Shown here in pieces: positions 58,359 through 63,945 of a DNA stretch of 64,000 nt. A model generated the notes under the pieces. The model searched no databases and was not told where the DNA came from. It saw nothing but the letters and a program-made list of their open reading frames with translations. Each line of letters starts with the position of its first letter. The first letter of the stretch is position 1. Source of the DNA: Bacteroidia bacterium. GTDB taxonomy: Bacteria; Bacteroidota; Bacteroidia; Flavobacteriales_D; Sanyastnellaceae. Where the stretch lies: assembly GCA_030427925.1 (NCBI GenBank), contig JAUICJ010000002.1, positions 124,001-188,000 of the forward strand. The letters run 5' to 3'. Both the position numbers and the translations under genes were made by a program.

Positions 58359-58796
58359 TTACGCGAGGGCGGTGAGCGAAACGACTGCGGATTCGGCGGC
58401 TTGGCGGGAGGCGAAGGCATGCCAAACCCGTTCCCGTCCGCCCCGCACGCACACCACATCCCAGTACTCCACGGCCGAGGCACGCGGGGCGCCACGGCGG
58501 TTCATCAGGGACTGCTTGTGGTGGACGCTCGCAAAGCGGTCGCCGGGTTCGATGCGGTGCCAGCGGCCCCAACGCACCCAGCGGGAACCGATGCGCCAGC
58601 CGGTGAATGAGCGGAAGCGGCCGTTGCGGATTTGGCCTCCGCTGCGGAGCAGAAACGGCCAAGGCGTCAAGGCCAGCGCGGCCGCCAGCGCGCCCCACAC
58701 CTGGTAACGGAGCGCCACGAAGACCGAGACCAACGGGACCAGGCCGAGCATCAGCCCCGCCCCTTGCACCCCATCGTCCCAGGTCTGCTCCTCCAT
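58359..58796 (-). CDS. Small two-helix membrane protein, TonB-receptor neighbour
   Basis: 145 residues from ATG 58796, which forms TGATG with the TonB receptor stop (GTG 58799 is the alternative). Two hydrophobic segments (about 13-31 and 33-50) followed by a basic, Trp-rich soluble tail (FTGWRIGSRWVRWGRWHRI). No family recognised. Coupling to the receptor may mean a linked role, but the receptor substrate is also unknown. Confidence 0.65.
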   Translation of the reverse strand: MEEQTWDDGVQGAGLMLGLVPLVSVFVALRYQVWGALAAALALTPWPFLLRSGGQIRNGRFRSFTGWRIGSRWVRWGRWHRIEPGDRFASVHHKQSLMNRRGAPRASAVEYWDVVCVRGGRERVWHAFASRQAAESAVVSLTALA

Positions 58797-61210
58797 CACA
58801 GTTCCACGATGATGCCCAGGGCGGGCAGGACGGTGCCGGCGCTCGGGTCGAGCACGCGGCGGTCATAAAAATTCGGGTCGTCGCTCAGGATCGGAGCACC
58901 GGTGAAGGGGTTGCGCACGACGTCGTTGACGGGCGGTTGCGGAACGGCGGCTCCGGTGGCGTTTTGGACTTCGAAGAAGACGTCAAGCGACCAGCGCTCG
59001 AAGAACCACTTGCGGTCCACGCGGATGTCGAGCTGGTGGAACGCCCCGTTGCGCTCCGCGTTCAATTGCGTGTAATCGGGGAGCGGACGACCGAAGTAAT
59101 TCCATTGGTCCACGGCGAAGGACTGCGGATCCACAGGCGTGTACGGCAGGCCACCGCTCACGAGCAAACGAGCGCCGAGCTCCCAACCGCTCTCCCACTT
59201 CTTCCCGCCGGTCATGCTGAGGATGTGGCGGTTGTCCCAACTCGAAGCCACCCATTCATCTTCCGACTGCTCGAATTCGCTCCGCACGAACGTGTACGCC
59301 AGCAACCCGTAAAATCCGCGGTTCAGGCGCTGTTGAATGAGCAGCTCCGTTCCGTAGGCCCGACCGACGCCATCAAACGTCACGGCTTCGTTGCCGACCA
59401 CCCCGAAGTCCGCCCCGAGGTTCGCCAAGGCAATGCCGCGGTTGACGCTCACTGGGGCGTTCAGGTACTTCTTCCAAAACCCTTCCAGCGAAATGACGCG
59501 GTTCGTCGCATCGCTCTCCCAACGCAATCCGGTGACGAGCTGCCGATTCGACAAATACCGCGCCTCGCTGCCCGCGTTGATCCGGTTGCCGCCTGCATCG
59601 GCGAACCCGAGGATGGTGTAGGCCGGCAGCTGCCGGTAGATGCCGGCGTTCGCGTTCCACGTCCAGCCCGGAGCAAAGGCCCAGCTGAGTGAGGCGCGCG
59701 GCGAGGTGTATTCAAGGGGATTGCGCAACCCCTCAGCTGCGGACGAACCGTCCAGTCGCAGGCCCGCGGACCACGTCAAGCGGTTGTCCCATATCCGCTG
59801 GCTCGCGTTCGCGAACGCCCCGTACTTCCAAGCCTTGAACGCGGAGCTGAATTCGACCGGACGAAGCACGTTGCTCGCATCGAGTTCTTGGCTCAAGGTG
59901 CTGTTCGTGTACTTCACGTATTCCGCGCCCAAACCGTAGGTGGCCTCCATCCCATTCGGGAAGGTCCGCCGCCGCTCCGCCCGGAATTTGTTTTCGATTT
60001 CGCGCGAAACGTAATCGCGCAGCAACGTCGAATCCGGGTTGTTGTCGGCGTTCTTGTAGGCCCGGTTGTTCAGCATGTTTCGGCTGGCCACGAAGGTCCA
60101 CCGGCCGTCGTCTTGGTAGCGATCCCACTTGGCGCCCTGCGTGTAATTCCACTGGGTTTGGACATCGAGGAAGCCCAAAATCGCGACCTGCTCCAAATAA
60201 TTGTCCGCCGTCGTGTCCTCCGCGATGGCGAGGTTCAGTTCGAAATCATCCAAGGCGCCAAGCCCAAGGACGGTGATGGCGTTGCGGTCATCGGGGCGCG
60301 CAGTCCATTTGAACTGGTAATCGTTGTAAATGGGCAGAAACGGCAAGCCGAGTGCCTTGAACAGCAGCTGGAGGTAACTGCGGCGAACGCTGGCAATCAG
60401 CGAACTGTTCTCGCCCGTGGGGCCTTCAAGCGTCAAGCCCAAATCGCTCGTCCCCACGACCAAGTTGGCCGTCCATTCGTCCGTCCGCGCCTCCTTGAAC
60501 TTGAATTCGAGGACGCTGCTCAATGCGTTGCCGCGTGCGGCGGGGAAGGCGCCGGCGTAGAAGTCGATGTTCTCGACGAGGTCGACGTTGATCATGCCCA
60601 CGGGGCCACCGCTCGCGCCTTGGGTGGCGAAGTGGTTGATGTTGGGGATTTCGATGCCGTCGATGTAAAAGCGGTTCTCGTTGGGCGCACCGCCTCGGAT
60701 GACGATGTCGTTGCGGAAGCTCGGGATGGCGGCGACGCCGGGCAGCGTGCGGATGGCCCGGCTGATGTCCCGACCGCCCCCGGGGTTGCGTTTGATTTCG
60801 TTGGTTCCGAGGCTGCGGACGCTGAGTGGGGCCTCAGCTTGGGTGGCCCGGCGTTCGACGACGACTTCAGCGGCCTCGATGGCGACGGCTTGTTCCGTCA
60901 ATCCGACCCGAATGACGGCCGGGCGCGCGGGAGTGACCTCGATTTCGTAGACGGTCTTCGTTTCGTAGCCGACGAAGGAGACGGTCACGTTGCGCAGGCC
61001 CGCAGGCACGTTGATCAACTCGAACGCGCCGTCAAAATCCGTGGAAGCCCCGGAGGCTTCGCCTTCGAGAACGACCGTGGCAAAGGGAATGGGGTCGTTG
61101 GATACGGCGTCGAACACGAAGCCGCGGATGGCTCCGGTTTGGCCCCACACCAGCAAGCCCTGCAGCAACAACGCACACAGCACGACGCTGCGAAATGCCA
61201 AATTCTTCAT
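58796..61210 (-). CDS. TonB-dependent outer membrane receptor
   Basis: 804 residues from ATG 61210 (ATG 61237 gives a poorer signal peptide). Signal peptide (to about 23), a CarboxypepD-regulatory-like domain (about 25-100, GAIRGFVFDAVSNDPIPFATVVLEG), plug domain with FRNDIVIRGGAPNENRFYIDGIEIPNI, and a 22-strand-type barrel ending LPALGIIVEL. No SusD partner is adjacent, so it is not a standard SusCD pair. Substrate unknown. 46 bases after dnaX. Confidence 0.9.
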   Translation of the reverse strand: MKNLAFRSVVLCALLLQGLLVWGQTGAIRGFVFDAVSNDPIPFATVVLEGEASGASTDFDGAFELINVPAGLRNVTVSFVGYETKTVYEIEVTPARPAVIRVGLTEQAVAIEAAEVVVERRATQAEAPLSVRSLGTNEIKRNPGGGRDISRAIRTLPGVAAIPSFRNDIVIRGGAPNENRFYIDGIEIPNINHFATQGASGGPVGMINVDLVENIDFYAGAFPAARGNALSSVLEFKFKEARTDEWTANLVVGTSDLGLTLEGPTGENSSLIASVRRSYLQLLFKALGLPFLPIYNDYQFKWTARPDDRNAITVLGLGALDDFELNLAIAEDTTADNYLEQVAILGFLDVQTQWNYTQGAKWDRYQDDGRWTFVASRNMLNNRAYKNADNNPDSTLLRDYVSREIENKFRAERRRTFPNGMEATYGLGAEYVKYTNSTLSQELDASNVLRPVEFSSAFKAWKYGAFANASQRIWDNRLTWSAGLRLDGSSAAEGLRNPLEYTSPRASLSWAFAPGWTWNANAGIYRQLPAYTILGFADAGGNRINAGSEARYLSNRQLVTGLRWESDATNRVISLEGFWKKYLNAPVSVNRGIALANLGADFGVVGNEAVTFDGVGRAYGTELLIQQRLNRGFYGLLAYTFVRSEFEQSEDEWVASSWDNRHILSMTGGKKWESGWELGARLLVSGGLPYTPVDPQSFAVDQWNYFGRPLPDYTQLNAERNGAFHQLDIRVDRKWFFERWSLDVFFEVQNATGAAVPQPPVNDVVRNPFTGAPILSDDPNFYDRRVLDPSAGTVLPALGIIVEL

Positions 61211-61255
61211 GACGTGAAAACAACTGAAGTTCGTCACGGTTCTGTCAGGGTCCCG

Positions 61256-62959
61256 TTATCGCAAATCCAAATCCAACCGCCGACGCAGCACGTCCAATCC
61301 GGGCTGCGCCGCGGCCATGGCGTCGTAGCGGTCGCGGTCGGTCATGAACTTCATGGTGGGCTCATCCCGTTCGGTGACGTTGACGCGCAGTTCCAGCCCC
61401 CCGTTCCGCAAGTTGCGGCGCAGGGCATCGAGCAAGTCAGGGCGCACGTCGGAAAGCTGTCCGAGTTGAACCTCGTTGATGACTTCGAGCTGCACGGTCT
61501 CCCCGTGCAATTCGAGTTTTGCACTCCGCAAGGTGGCGGCCAGGTTCGCCCGTTGATCCGCTTGCAGCCCCTGGGCGAACGCGTTGTAGGCCTGCTGGAC
61601 GGACTCCATCGTCACGGGATCTCGCCAGTCATCCGGAATCGGCGGAAGTTCTTCCGGCTTTTGTTCGCGGTCCGTCCCGACAACCAAGGAGTCCGGAACG
61701 ACCACTTTGACCGCGCGCTTCCTCAAGCCCCCGACCCGCATGGGTGGCGCTTCAGGGACCGGAGCCGGCGCCGACGAAGGGGCGGCAGCCGCTTGAACGG
61801 GGGGCGCTGCATCCGCCCTCAACGGGGCAGATTCCGAAGGTCGCCGACTGCGCCATGCGTCAGCCAGCACCGGAACCAATGAGGTTATTTTTTTTTTGTC
61901 CGCTTCCGAGAGGGAGCAGAGTTGCATCAGCGTCAGTTCCACCAGCAACCGCTGATGTTGGCTGCCTCGGTATTGCACGTCGGCCTGGTTGACGTGGTCC
62001 AAACCCCGAATCAGGAACACCAACGAGCACTTCGCGGCCTGCTCGGCATAACGCTTCTTCAAATCGTCCGGCCCTTCGATGAGCGAAGTCGTTGCCGCAT
62101 CCTTCGCCACGAGCACGTTTCGCAAATGCGCACCCAATCCCGAAATGAAATGGTGCGGATCGAATCCTCGCCGCACGATTTCATCCAACACCAAGAGGGC
62201 GGGCGCAACTTCGCCTGCCAAGGCGTGGTCCACTATCGAAAAATAGGTGTTGTGGTCAAGCACGTGCAGGTGCTCTGCGACCACATCGTAGGTCAAATTC
62301 CGCCCCGCAAACGCCACCAATTGGTCGAAAATACTCAGCGCATCCCGCAGCGCACCATCGGCCTTCTGCGCCACCACGTGCAACGCGGCTTCCTCCGCCG
62401 TCACCCCCTCCTTCTCCGCAATGCCTTGCAAGTGCTTCACCATGTCGTCCACCGTGATGCGGTGGAAATCGAAAATCTGGCAGCGCGACAAGATGGTGGG
62501 CAGGATCTTGTGCTTCTCCGTGGTCGCCAAAATGAATACCGCATGCGCCGGCGGCTCCTCCAACGTCTTCAAAAAGGCATTGAATGCAGCTTGGCTCAAC
62601 ATGTGCACCTCGTCGATGATGTACACCTTGTATTTGCCGCTCTGCGGGGGAATGCGCACCTGGTCCACAATCGACCGAATGTCCTCCACCTTGTTGTTGC
62701 TCGCCGCGTCAAGTTCGAACACATTGAACGCTTGGTCCTCGTCGTGACCGGCTTCGAACTGGTTGATGGCGCGGGCGAAAATCCGAGCAGAGGTCGTCTT
62801 TCCGACGCCACGGGGACCGCAGAACAGGTACGCCTGGGCGATTTGATTGCTGGAAATGGCCTGCTGCAGGGTGCGGGTGATGCCGGCTTGGCCCACCACG
62901 GCATCCCAATCTTGCGGGCGGTATTTCCTCGCGCTGACGGTGTAGTTCGCTTGCTCCAT
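61256..62959 (-). CDS. dnaX: DNA polymerase III gamma/tau subunit
   Basis: 567 residues. AAA+ domain with Walker A GPRGVGKTTSA (48-58), Walker B VYIIDEVH (112-119), SRC finger region LSRC (157-160), then a variable proline/alanine-rich tau tail. Clamp-loader ATPase. The zinc-module cysteines between the Walker motifs are missing (GHDEDQAFNVFELDAASNN), as I recall from other Bacteroidota. At 61888-61897 ten A residues on the minus strand code for Lys355-Lys357 and the start of Ile358; a slip of one base gives TAA at once (nine As) or a TGA about 13 codons on (eleven As), which would make a short gamma form of about 357-367 residues. Confidence 0.95.
   Translation of the reverse strand: MEQANYTVSARKYRPQDWDAVVGQAGITRTLQQAISSNQIAQAYLFCGPRGVGKTTSARIFARAINQFEAGHDEDQAFNVFELDAASNNKVEDIRSIVDQVRIPPQSGKYKVYIIDEVHMLSQAAFNAFLKTLEEPPAHAVFILATTEKHKILPTILSRCQIFDFHRITVDDMVKHLQGIAEKEGVTAEEAALHVVAQKADGALRDALSIFDQLVAFAGRNLTYDVVAEHLHVLDHNTYFSIVDHALAGEVAPALLVLDEIVRRGFDPHHFISGLGAHLRNVLVAKDAATTSLIEGPDDLKKRYAEQAAKCSLVFLIRGLDHVNQADVQYRGSQHQRLLVELTLMQLCSLSEADKKKITSLVPVLADAWRSRRPSESAPLRADAAPPVQAAAAPSSAPAPVPEAPPMRVGGLRKRAVKVVVPDSLVVGTDREQKPEELPPIPDDWRDPVTMESVQQAYNAFAQGLQADQRANLAATLRSAKLELHGETVQLEVINEVQLGQLSDVRPDLLDALRRNLRNGGLELRVNVTERDEPTMKFMTDRDRYDAMAAAQPGLDVLRRRLDLDLR
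61888..61897 (-). promoter_or_regulatory. A10 slippery run in dnaX (candidate programmed slippage site)
   Basis: Ten consecutive A on the coding strand after GAC (Asp354). Out-of-frame stops follow directly (TAA if one A is lost, TGA about 13 codons later if one is gained). In Thermus thermophilus, dnaX uses an A9 run for transcriptional slippage to make gamma. Confidence 0.6.
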
Positions 62960-63039: not shown

Positions 63040-63864
63040 TCAACGGCCCTTCGGCCCGCCCCACCAATTCCGGGGGAGCACCACCTCTCGCCTGCCCGGC
63101 ACGTTGTCGGCGTCGAGCGGATGCGGGATTTGGCGAGCCCAATCGCGGAACGCTGCTCGGTCGCGTCGGTGAAACGTCAGCTCCAGCAAAGGCGTCACCT
63201 CCACCCCTCGCACGCGCTTCGTGGCCATGTAGTTGTTCGGATGAGCATGCACCACCCGGTGGGTCTTCAACAGCCGGCCCAGCGCCGCCTCCACTACCGG
63301 GAGCAAGCCCGGACTTGCCCACCATTCAACGGAATGGAATTCGATGACCAAAATGCGGAACCGCTGAAGCAACTCGGGCGTTGCGTCCAACAGCACCTCG
63401 TATTCGGCTCCTTCGATGTCGATTTGGGCCATCAAATCCGCCGTAGCATCTACCGCCGACTCGTTCACCCAATCCTGCAAACTCAATCGATCGGCCCGCC
63501 CACGGGCGCCGACGAATTCCTTTCGAAAGTGCACGCCCGGCAAGGAAGCGATTCCCGATGCCGGTCCATCCACGGAAGCATCCGCGAGGAAAACCTCCAT
63601 GCCGCGGGCCAACGCGTCGGCCTCGAAGGCACTGGTTCGAGCAACGCCCGGTGAGAACAACGCGGCCAACGAACCGAGGTCATCTGGCACCAAATAGCCC
63701 CCATCGTGCGCCTCACCCATTCGAATCAACGGGATGCCTGTATCTTCAGGACGCAGCTGTTCGATCAGGCGGTTCAACCGTTCGCTTGTACGACCGGTGT
63801 GGAGGAAACCCAATCGCTCAGCAAACCGCAACATTCGGTGTTTCCATTCAAGGGAATGCTTCAT
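63040..63864 (-). CDS. FkbM-family methyltransferase-like protein
   Basis: 274 residues from ATG 63864 (the frame opens at 63927, but the earlier start overlaps the rpsF promoter region). Contains the FkbM-type GLY-rich start DGGYLVPDD, an SAM-binding region, and DLMAQIDIEGAEYEVLLD, the core FkbM signature. These enzymes O-methylate sugars or small molecules; a C-terminal part with THRVVHAHPNNYM is less typical. Substrate unknown. Divergent from rpsF. Confidence 0.8.
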   Translation of the reverse strand: MKHSLEWKHRMLRFAERLGFLHTGRTSERLNRLIEQLRPEDTGIPLIRMGEAHDGGYLVPDDLGSLAALFSPGVARTSAFEADALARGMEVFLADASVDGPASGIASLPGVHFRKEFVGARGRADRLSLQDWVNESAVDATADLMAQIDIEGAEYEVLLDATPELLQRFRILVIEFHSVEWWASPGLLPVVEAALGRLLKTHRVVHAHPNNYMATKRVRGVEVTPLLELTFHRRDRAAFRDWARQIPHPLDADNVPGRREVVLPRNWWGGPKGR

Positions 63865-63888
63865 CTGGACGAACTTAAACCTGTTGGC

Positions 63889-63919
63889 TTGGAATTCAAT
63901 GGAAGAGGATGTACTTTTG
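63889..63919 (+). promoter_or_regulatory. rpsF promoter
   Basis: TTG at 63889-63891, 20-base spacer, TACTTTTG at 63912-63919: full consensus, 26 bases before the rpsF ATG. Confidence 0.78.
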
Positions 63920-63945
63920 CGCCCCACTAATCTAAAAGTGTTCCT

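Follow-up and report, generated by a model that had tools for sequence, protein, structure and literature searches.

The question raised by this locus is whether a run of ten adenines in a dnaX gene is a site of programmed slippage, by which one gene would yield the two DnaX proteins gamma and tau, and, if so, which machine slips. The window, i.e. the whole stretch of DNA that was analysed, comprises 64,000 nt of a Bacteroidia bacterium (GCA_030427925.1, JAUICJ010000002.1, positions 124,001–188,000, forward strand). The following features on its minus strand are relevant:

61256–62959, minus strand: dnaX, an open reading frame of 567 codons with the TIGR02397 dnaX_nterm signature; its zero-frame product is tau
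61901–62959, minus strand: clamp-loader domains I–III, residues 1–353, assigned with Pfam and common to tau and the putative gamma
61888–61897, minus strand: the A10 run, a candidate slippery site, covering codons 355–357 and the first base of codon 358 (T10 on the plus strand)
61885–61887, minus strand: TAA that would end the gamma of an A9 message after K357, seen in the sequence and also in the same-genus relative L009
61860–61862, minus strand: TGA that would end the gamma of an A11 message after residue 366, seen in the sequence
61259–61887, minus strand: tau-specific tail, codons 358–567, assigned from phmmer matches to the tail ends of named loci
61370–61612, minus strand: putative globular domain with a KH-like fold in the tau tail (residues about 450–530), from the predicted structure and its structural neighbours

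The window protein matched TIGR02397 dnaX_nterm with 385.9 bits (cut-off 250) over residues 6–348. The Pfam domains DNA_pol3_delta2, DNAX_ATPase_lid and DNA_pol3_gamma3 were found, the last of them ending at residue 353, and the ATPase core, the lid and domain III are all present. A sequence-only reading had placed an A10 run near the end of the clamp-loader region, and it was verified that the run lies just past domain III. On the coding strand the site reads GAC AAA AAA AAA ATA ACC, and it contains the sole A10/T10 of the window. The neighbours of dnaX, both on the minus strand, are a gene for a TonB-receptor plug protein with a carboxypeptidase-regulatory-like domain (58796–61237) and an open reading frame with a weak match to FkbM methyltransferases, just under the cut-off of that family (63040–63927).

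Messages with nine, ten and eleven As are predicted to encode DnaX proteins of 357, 567 and 366 residues, respectively. The sequence-only reading had expected that the shifted frames end at about residue 357 or 367; the former position was correct, while the latter stop follows residue 366. The codons at the site are unusual for this gene. Away from the site its lysines are encoded by 4 AAA versus 16 AAG codons, and ATA accounts for 1 of 24 isoleucine codons, whereas at the site three AAA codons are followed by an ATA isoleucine codon, which is the source of the TAA in the A9 register. The same-genus relative shares both the ATA and the TAA.

Our interpretation is that dnaX carries a programmed slippage site that yields gamma and tau, with RNA polymerase most likely the slipping machine, as in Thermus, and we hold this with considerable confidence. 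RNA polymerase would copy the ten-A run inexactly and would thereby produce messages with differing numbers of As. In the window, messages with ten As, or with ten plus or minus multiples of three, would be translated into tau with its 567 residues. Messages with other A counts would run into a stop after no more than about ten codons, yielding gamma of 357 or 366 residues, i.e. the clamp-loader subunit devoid of the tau tail. For numerous relatives, gamma would be the default product of the template, and tau would come from a slipped message.

It had also been argued that an A10 run is unlikely in a GC-rich genome. This turned out to be weak on its own, because 0.31 A10/T10 runs are expected per shuffled 64-kb window and 22 of 100 shuffles contained at least one. 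A single A10 being within the shuffle range, rarity was dropped as an argument, and the case for slippage is based on the comparison with relatives. Genome-wide, seven A10/T10 runs are present in 2.95 Mb. Of the other six, four are not covered by any stop-to-stop frame of 130 codons, and one was found by inspection to lie between two open reading frames taken as genes. At L005 1501–1510, in the same genome, an A10 abuts the ATG of a long open reading frame, overlapping it by one base; by inspection, this frame resembles the large chain of carbamoyl-phosphate synthase.

Sixty genomes of the same genus, the same family and the same order, including that of the window, were searched and their dnaX DNA was fetched; 58 of them were scored, the two left out being G022, which had fragments without the site, and G053, which had no dnaX match. 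A run of nine to eleven As was present in 58 of 58 relatives within 31 codons past domain III (49 A10, 7 A11, 2 A9), while no other run of at least nine As or Ts occurred in the rest of these dnaX genes (95.7 kb). Replacement of the lysine codons by AAG, which the sequence-only reading had named as evidence against slippage, was thus not encountered. The codon phase of the run, its flanking amino acids and the linker were all variable.

Also variable was the register of the tau tail relative to the N-terminal part. Of the 58 relatives, 28 have the tail in the zero frame, 9 in the +1 frame and 20 in the +2 frame, and the remaining one, at a contig end, could not be assigned. With the tail off-frame in 29 of 58 relatives, tau needs a shift there, and the shift-dependent product of these genes would be tau and not gamma, unlike in the window. 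In the off-frame relatives the N-terminal open reading frame is terminated close to the run, and a separate open reading frame of about 200–250 codons encodes the tail.

Ten pairs of such split genes were compared, and the differences were counted by codon position in the tail frame. The third codon positions differed most in all ten pairs. The three closest pairs had 9/3/36, 12/4/77 and 19/15/82 differences at positions 1/2/3, and distant pairs were near saturation (e.g., 118/83/139). The excess of third-position differences in the tau frame indicates that the off-frame tail is translated. A start codon of its own was considered for the off-frame tail and rejected, as the first ATG lies 8–203 codons past the run, and more than 100 codons in five of ten cases (first member of each pair, ATG after the run only).

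A quick maximum-likelihood tree of 57 relatives was built from the N-terminal part, which ends before the run; in its best version 14 register changes were counted, and the run was retained throughout; the well-supported branches alone force only 4, 3 and 5 changes when the registers are taken singly. A wider FastTree tree of 250 run-bearing genes gave 43 register changes.

The analysis was extended over the phylum Bacteroidota. After removal of identical N-terminal parts 307 distinct dnaX genes were obtained, and the run was present in 252 of them; its absence from the other 55 implies that some lineages can do without the device. An even draw over the class comprised 109 genomes, of which 105 were scored (G068 and G124 had no dnaX match, G072 was partial and L073 too short). 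A run of at least nine As, no more than 400 bases from the end of domain III, was found in 89 of the 105 (71 of them A10), and a narrower scan found it in 85. In the other classes of the phylum, for which 57 of 82 genomes were covered, taken mainly by ranking and not randomly, the run was present in 34 of 57 (16 A10, 18 A9); two others had no dnaX match.

Among named loci the run was present in 64 of 79 that were scored, one of 80 being too short; the 80 are the best among at least 594 that were retrieved with six query peptides, one of them spanning the run, and therefore form a biased sample. Named carriers include Flavobacterium, Flagellimonas, Aquimarina, Chryseobacterium and Pedobacter as well as Mucilaginibacter, Sphingobacterium, Dyadobacter, Rufibacter and Hymenobacter, and 14 of the 15 loci without the run among these best 80 of at least 594 belong to the Bacteroidales, one of them to a Bacteroides. 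Elsewhere in the genes, runs of at least nine As were found five times in 179 kb (class), not at all in 98 kb (other classes) and three times in 133 kb (named loci), and runs of at least nine Ts were absent from all three sets.

The phylum-wide set also linked the run to the register of the tail. The tail was off-frame in 87 of 250 run-bearing genes versus 1 of 51 without the run (Fisher p 1.2e-7), and in frame in 163 and 50, respectively; a test on independent pairs, of which there were too few, was not significant (median p 0.5). Left out of the register counts were the run-bearing L035 and L209, which lie at contig ends, and the run-less L149, L151, L194 and L268. The off-frames behind the run are closed. 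Both of them are shut within 10 codons in 232 of 250 run-bearing genes versus 26% for shuffled tail codons, and the median distance to an off-frame stop is 2.7 codons versus 10.7 at random tail places (duplicates still included). The run kept by all 58 scored relatives and off-frame stops far above the controls support programmed slippage at the A10, as the sequence-only reading had proposed.

Three genes deserve separate mention. L191, from a Bacteroidales MAG, has its tail off-frame without an A run and does not fit the picture; an assembly error or another route of shifting could account for it. L149, also from a Bacteroidales MAG, does not fit either, as it has an in-frame TAG just past domain III and its tail in the same frame. 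In L268, from a genome of 0.5 Mb, dnaX has a GC content of 0.18 and stops right past domain III; a search behind domain III gave no tail frame of 110 codons, and apparently only gamma is made.

A further observation concerns residues 67–81 (62717–62761), which we take to be the zinc module of DnaX. In the window protein the cysteines of this module are missing. The segment was recognisable in 288 genes and contains no cysteine in 111 and at least three in 177; 19 further genes had no recognisable segment. The losses include Flavobacterium, Flagellimonas and a block of out-of-class genomes.

The tail itself was characterized with the last 143 residues of the window protein (residues 425–567). 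Of 75 named loci from the best 80 of at least 594, 66 have a tail end that is matched by these residues (phmmer, E<0.01), in-frame and off-frame tails included. Pfam yielded no match for the tail and a PDB sequence search no clear family. The structural model of these residues has a mean pLDDT of 89.8, and its best structural neighbours include domain I of DnaA (Z 9.0, rmsd 2.6, 79 residues) and DciA (Z 7.8). The scores of unrelated, ribosome-related KH-like chains come just below those of these two. The Foldseek E-values were weak (best 7.7e-3); a chain of the E. coli polymerase complex, 5fku_E, ranked 17th with an rmsd of 12.8, and domain V of E. coli tau did not stand out among the structure matches. 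The predicted tail fits a KH-like domain as in replication proteins; together, these matches neither prove nor exclude homology to domain V of E. coli tau.

Slippage at the run can be envisaged during transcription or during translation. The E. coli dnaX gene uses –1 ribosomal frameshifting at A_AAA_AAG, and a ribosome that shifts on A-rich codons, instead of an RNA polymerase that slips, could make the second product also here. Every A10 contains A_AAA_AAA, and the E. coli heptamer A_AAA_AAG is found in the zero frame of 82 of 250 genes, although not in that of the window, where a T follows the run. The run is however longer than a slip heptamer needs to be, with a length of exactly 10 in 189 of 250 genes. 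Moreover, one closed off-frame would suffice for the ribosome, yet both are closed in the vast majority of genes, and a tail in the +1 register (14 of 250 genes) is out of reach of –1 slippage. The stimulatory elements gave a mixed picture. An SD-like sequence upstream of the run was commoner in relatives (18 of 58) than in controls (13.8%). On average, downstream structure did not exceed that at other places in the gene (57 relatives, mean rank 0.47), which gives a hairpin no general support as a stimulator, though in 6 of 57 the structure was in the top 5% of its own gene. Chlorobium phaeobacteroides is cited in PMC5009743 as a candidate with stimulators like those of E. coli. In the window's genome, the tRNAs that were read included a single tRNA-Lys (UUU) (35 matches, 30 with given loci and 3 read as neighbours; two of 81 and 85 bases were left out), which is compatible with the ribosome and does not favour transcription, and the number of tRNA-Lys was thus discarded as a discriminator. 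Judged from these sequence features, RNA polymerase appears to be the better candidate, because tau occurs in the +1 and in the –1 (+2) register, both off-frames are closed, mean structure is not raised, and the run roughly equals the RNA-DNA hybrid within RNA polymerase in length. Shifts in both directions with the same run are regarded as a sign of transcriptional realignment in Antonov 2013 (PMC3711429). A ribosomal origin is unlikely overall, but the SD-like enrichment, the six structured relatives, the heptamer and the single tRNA-Lys suggest that ribosomal slippage may contribute in some species.

It is very unlikely that the run merely reflects a conserved lysine-rich linker past domain III of a single product. 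K-K-K or K-K-N is indeed common at the site and most run-bearing genes have their tail in frame, but lysine could be encoded by AAG, as the window dnaX prefers elsewhere, and the run begins at all three codon positions, encodes 25 different tetrapeptides and is present in 16 dnaX genes with a GC content of at least 55% and up to 67%. The off-frame tails and the split relatives contradict a linker directly. Replication slippage that toggles the gene between generations, i.e. a contingency locus, has even less to recommend it: run length and register do vary, with A10 tau+2 and A9 tau+1 within Flavobacterium, but the length of 10 prevails in all three registers, and the clamp loader would be expected to need both products at once. 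Homopolymers are in general prone to sequencing error, but it is scarcely conceivable that the A10 is a sequencing or assembly error, since the run recurs in 252 of the 307 distinct genes of the phylum, named isolates included, and the tau of the window is in frame with ten As.

Directly visible in the sequences are the A run and how it is conserved, the closure of the off-frames and the coding constraint on the off-frame tails of relatives. We infer from them that slippage occurs and that it is transcriptional; the two products would presumably act as gamma and tau, in a ratio that is likewise a matter of inference. A more far-reaching idea, to which we give about even chances, is that dnaX is register-blind across the Bacteroidota. 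The run would spread the messages over three frames, the register would drift, and selection would act on a run of about 10 and on closed off-frames. With messages in all frames, gain or loss of a single base nearby, a change that would destroy a different gene, would only swap the default product of the template.

Transcriptional slippage at the A9 run of Thermus thermophilus dnaX was reportedly described by Larsen et al. in 2000. The kind of site is thus already known, and the window gene belongs to it. According to PMC1088944 and PMC5009743, gamma arises in Thermus through transcriptional slippage at the A9 of dnaX, where the two other frames are stopped as well, and the mRNA evidence described for the device comes from this genus. 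The window resembles T. thermophilus in the late A run, the zero-frame tau and the near stops in both frames, with a predicted gamma here. They differ in that Thermus has an A9 with mRNA evidence and two tRNA-Lys (PMC5009743), whereas the window has an A10 seen in the sequence, and one tRNA-Lys was seen. In Antonov 2013 (PMC3711429), 17 split dnaX genes are reported, nine with 10 As, for which slippage was proposed and in which tau needs a shift. The off-frame relatives described here are alike in gene, A10 and proposed slippage; all 17 are however of the –1 type, whereas tau is in frame in the window and the relatives occur in three registers. With E. coli dnaX the proposal shares the generation of gamma and tau from one gene, but the window lacks A_AAA_AAG, the relatives show no mean excess of structure, and both off-frames are stopped. 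In the open PMC literature, supplements excluded, no report was found of phylum-wide conservation of the run together with repeated register switching.

For annotation, the split of tau over two frames in 87 of 250 run-bearing genes should lead an ordinary gene caller to annotate a short DnaX and an orphan open reading frame. The natural register switches offer a ready-made test of the spread of messages over the frames and of the need for gamma. Taken together, the results indicate that selection maintains both gamma and tau over much of a large phylum.
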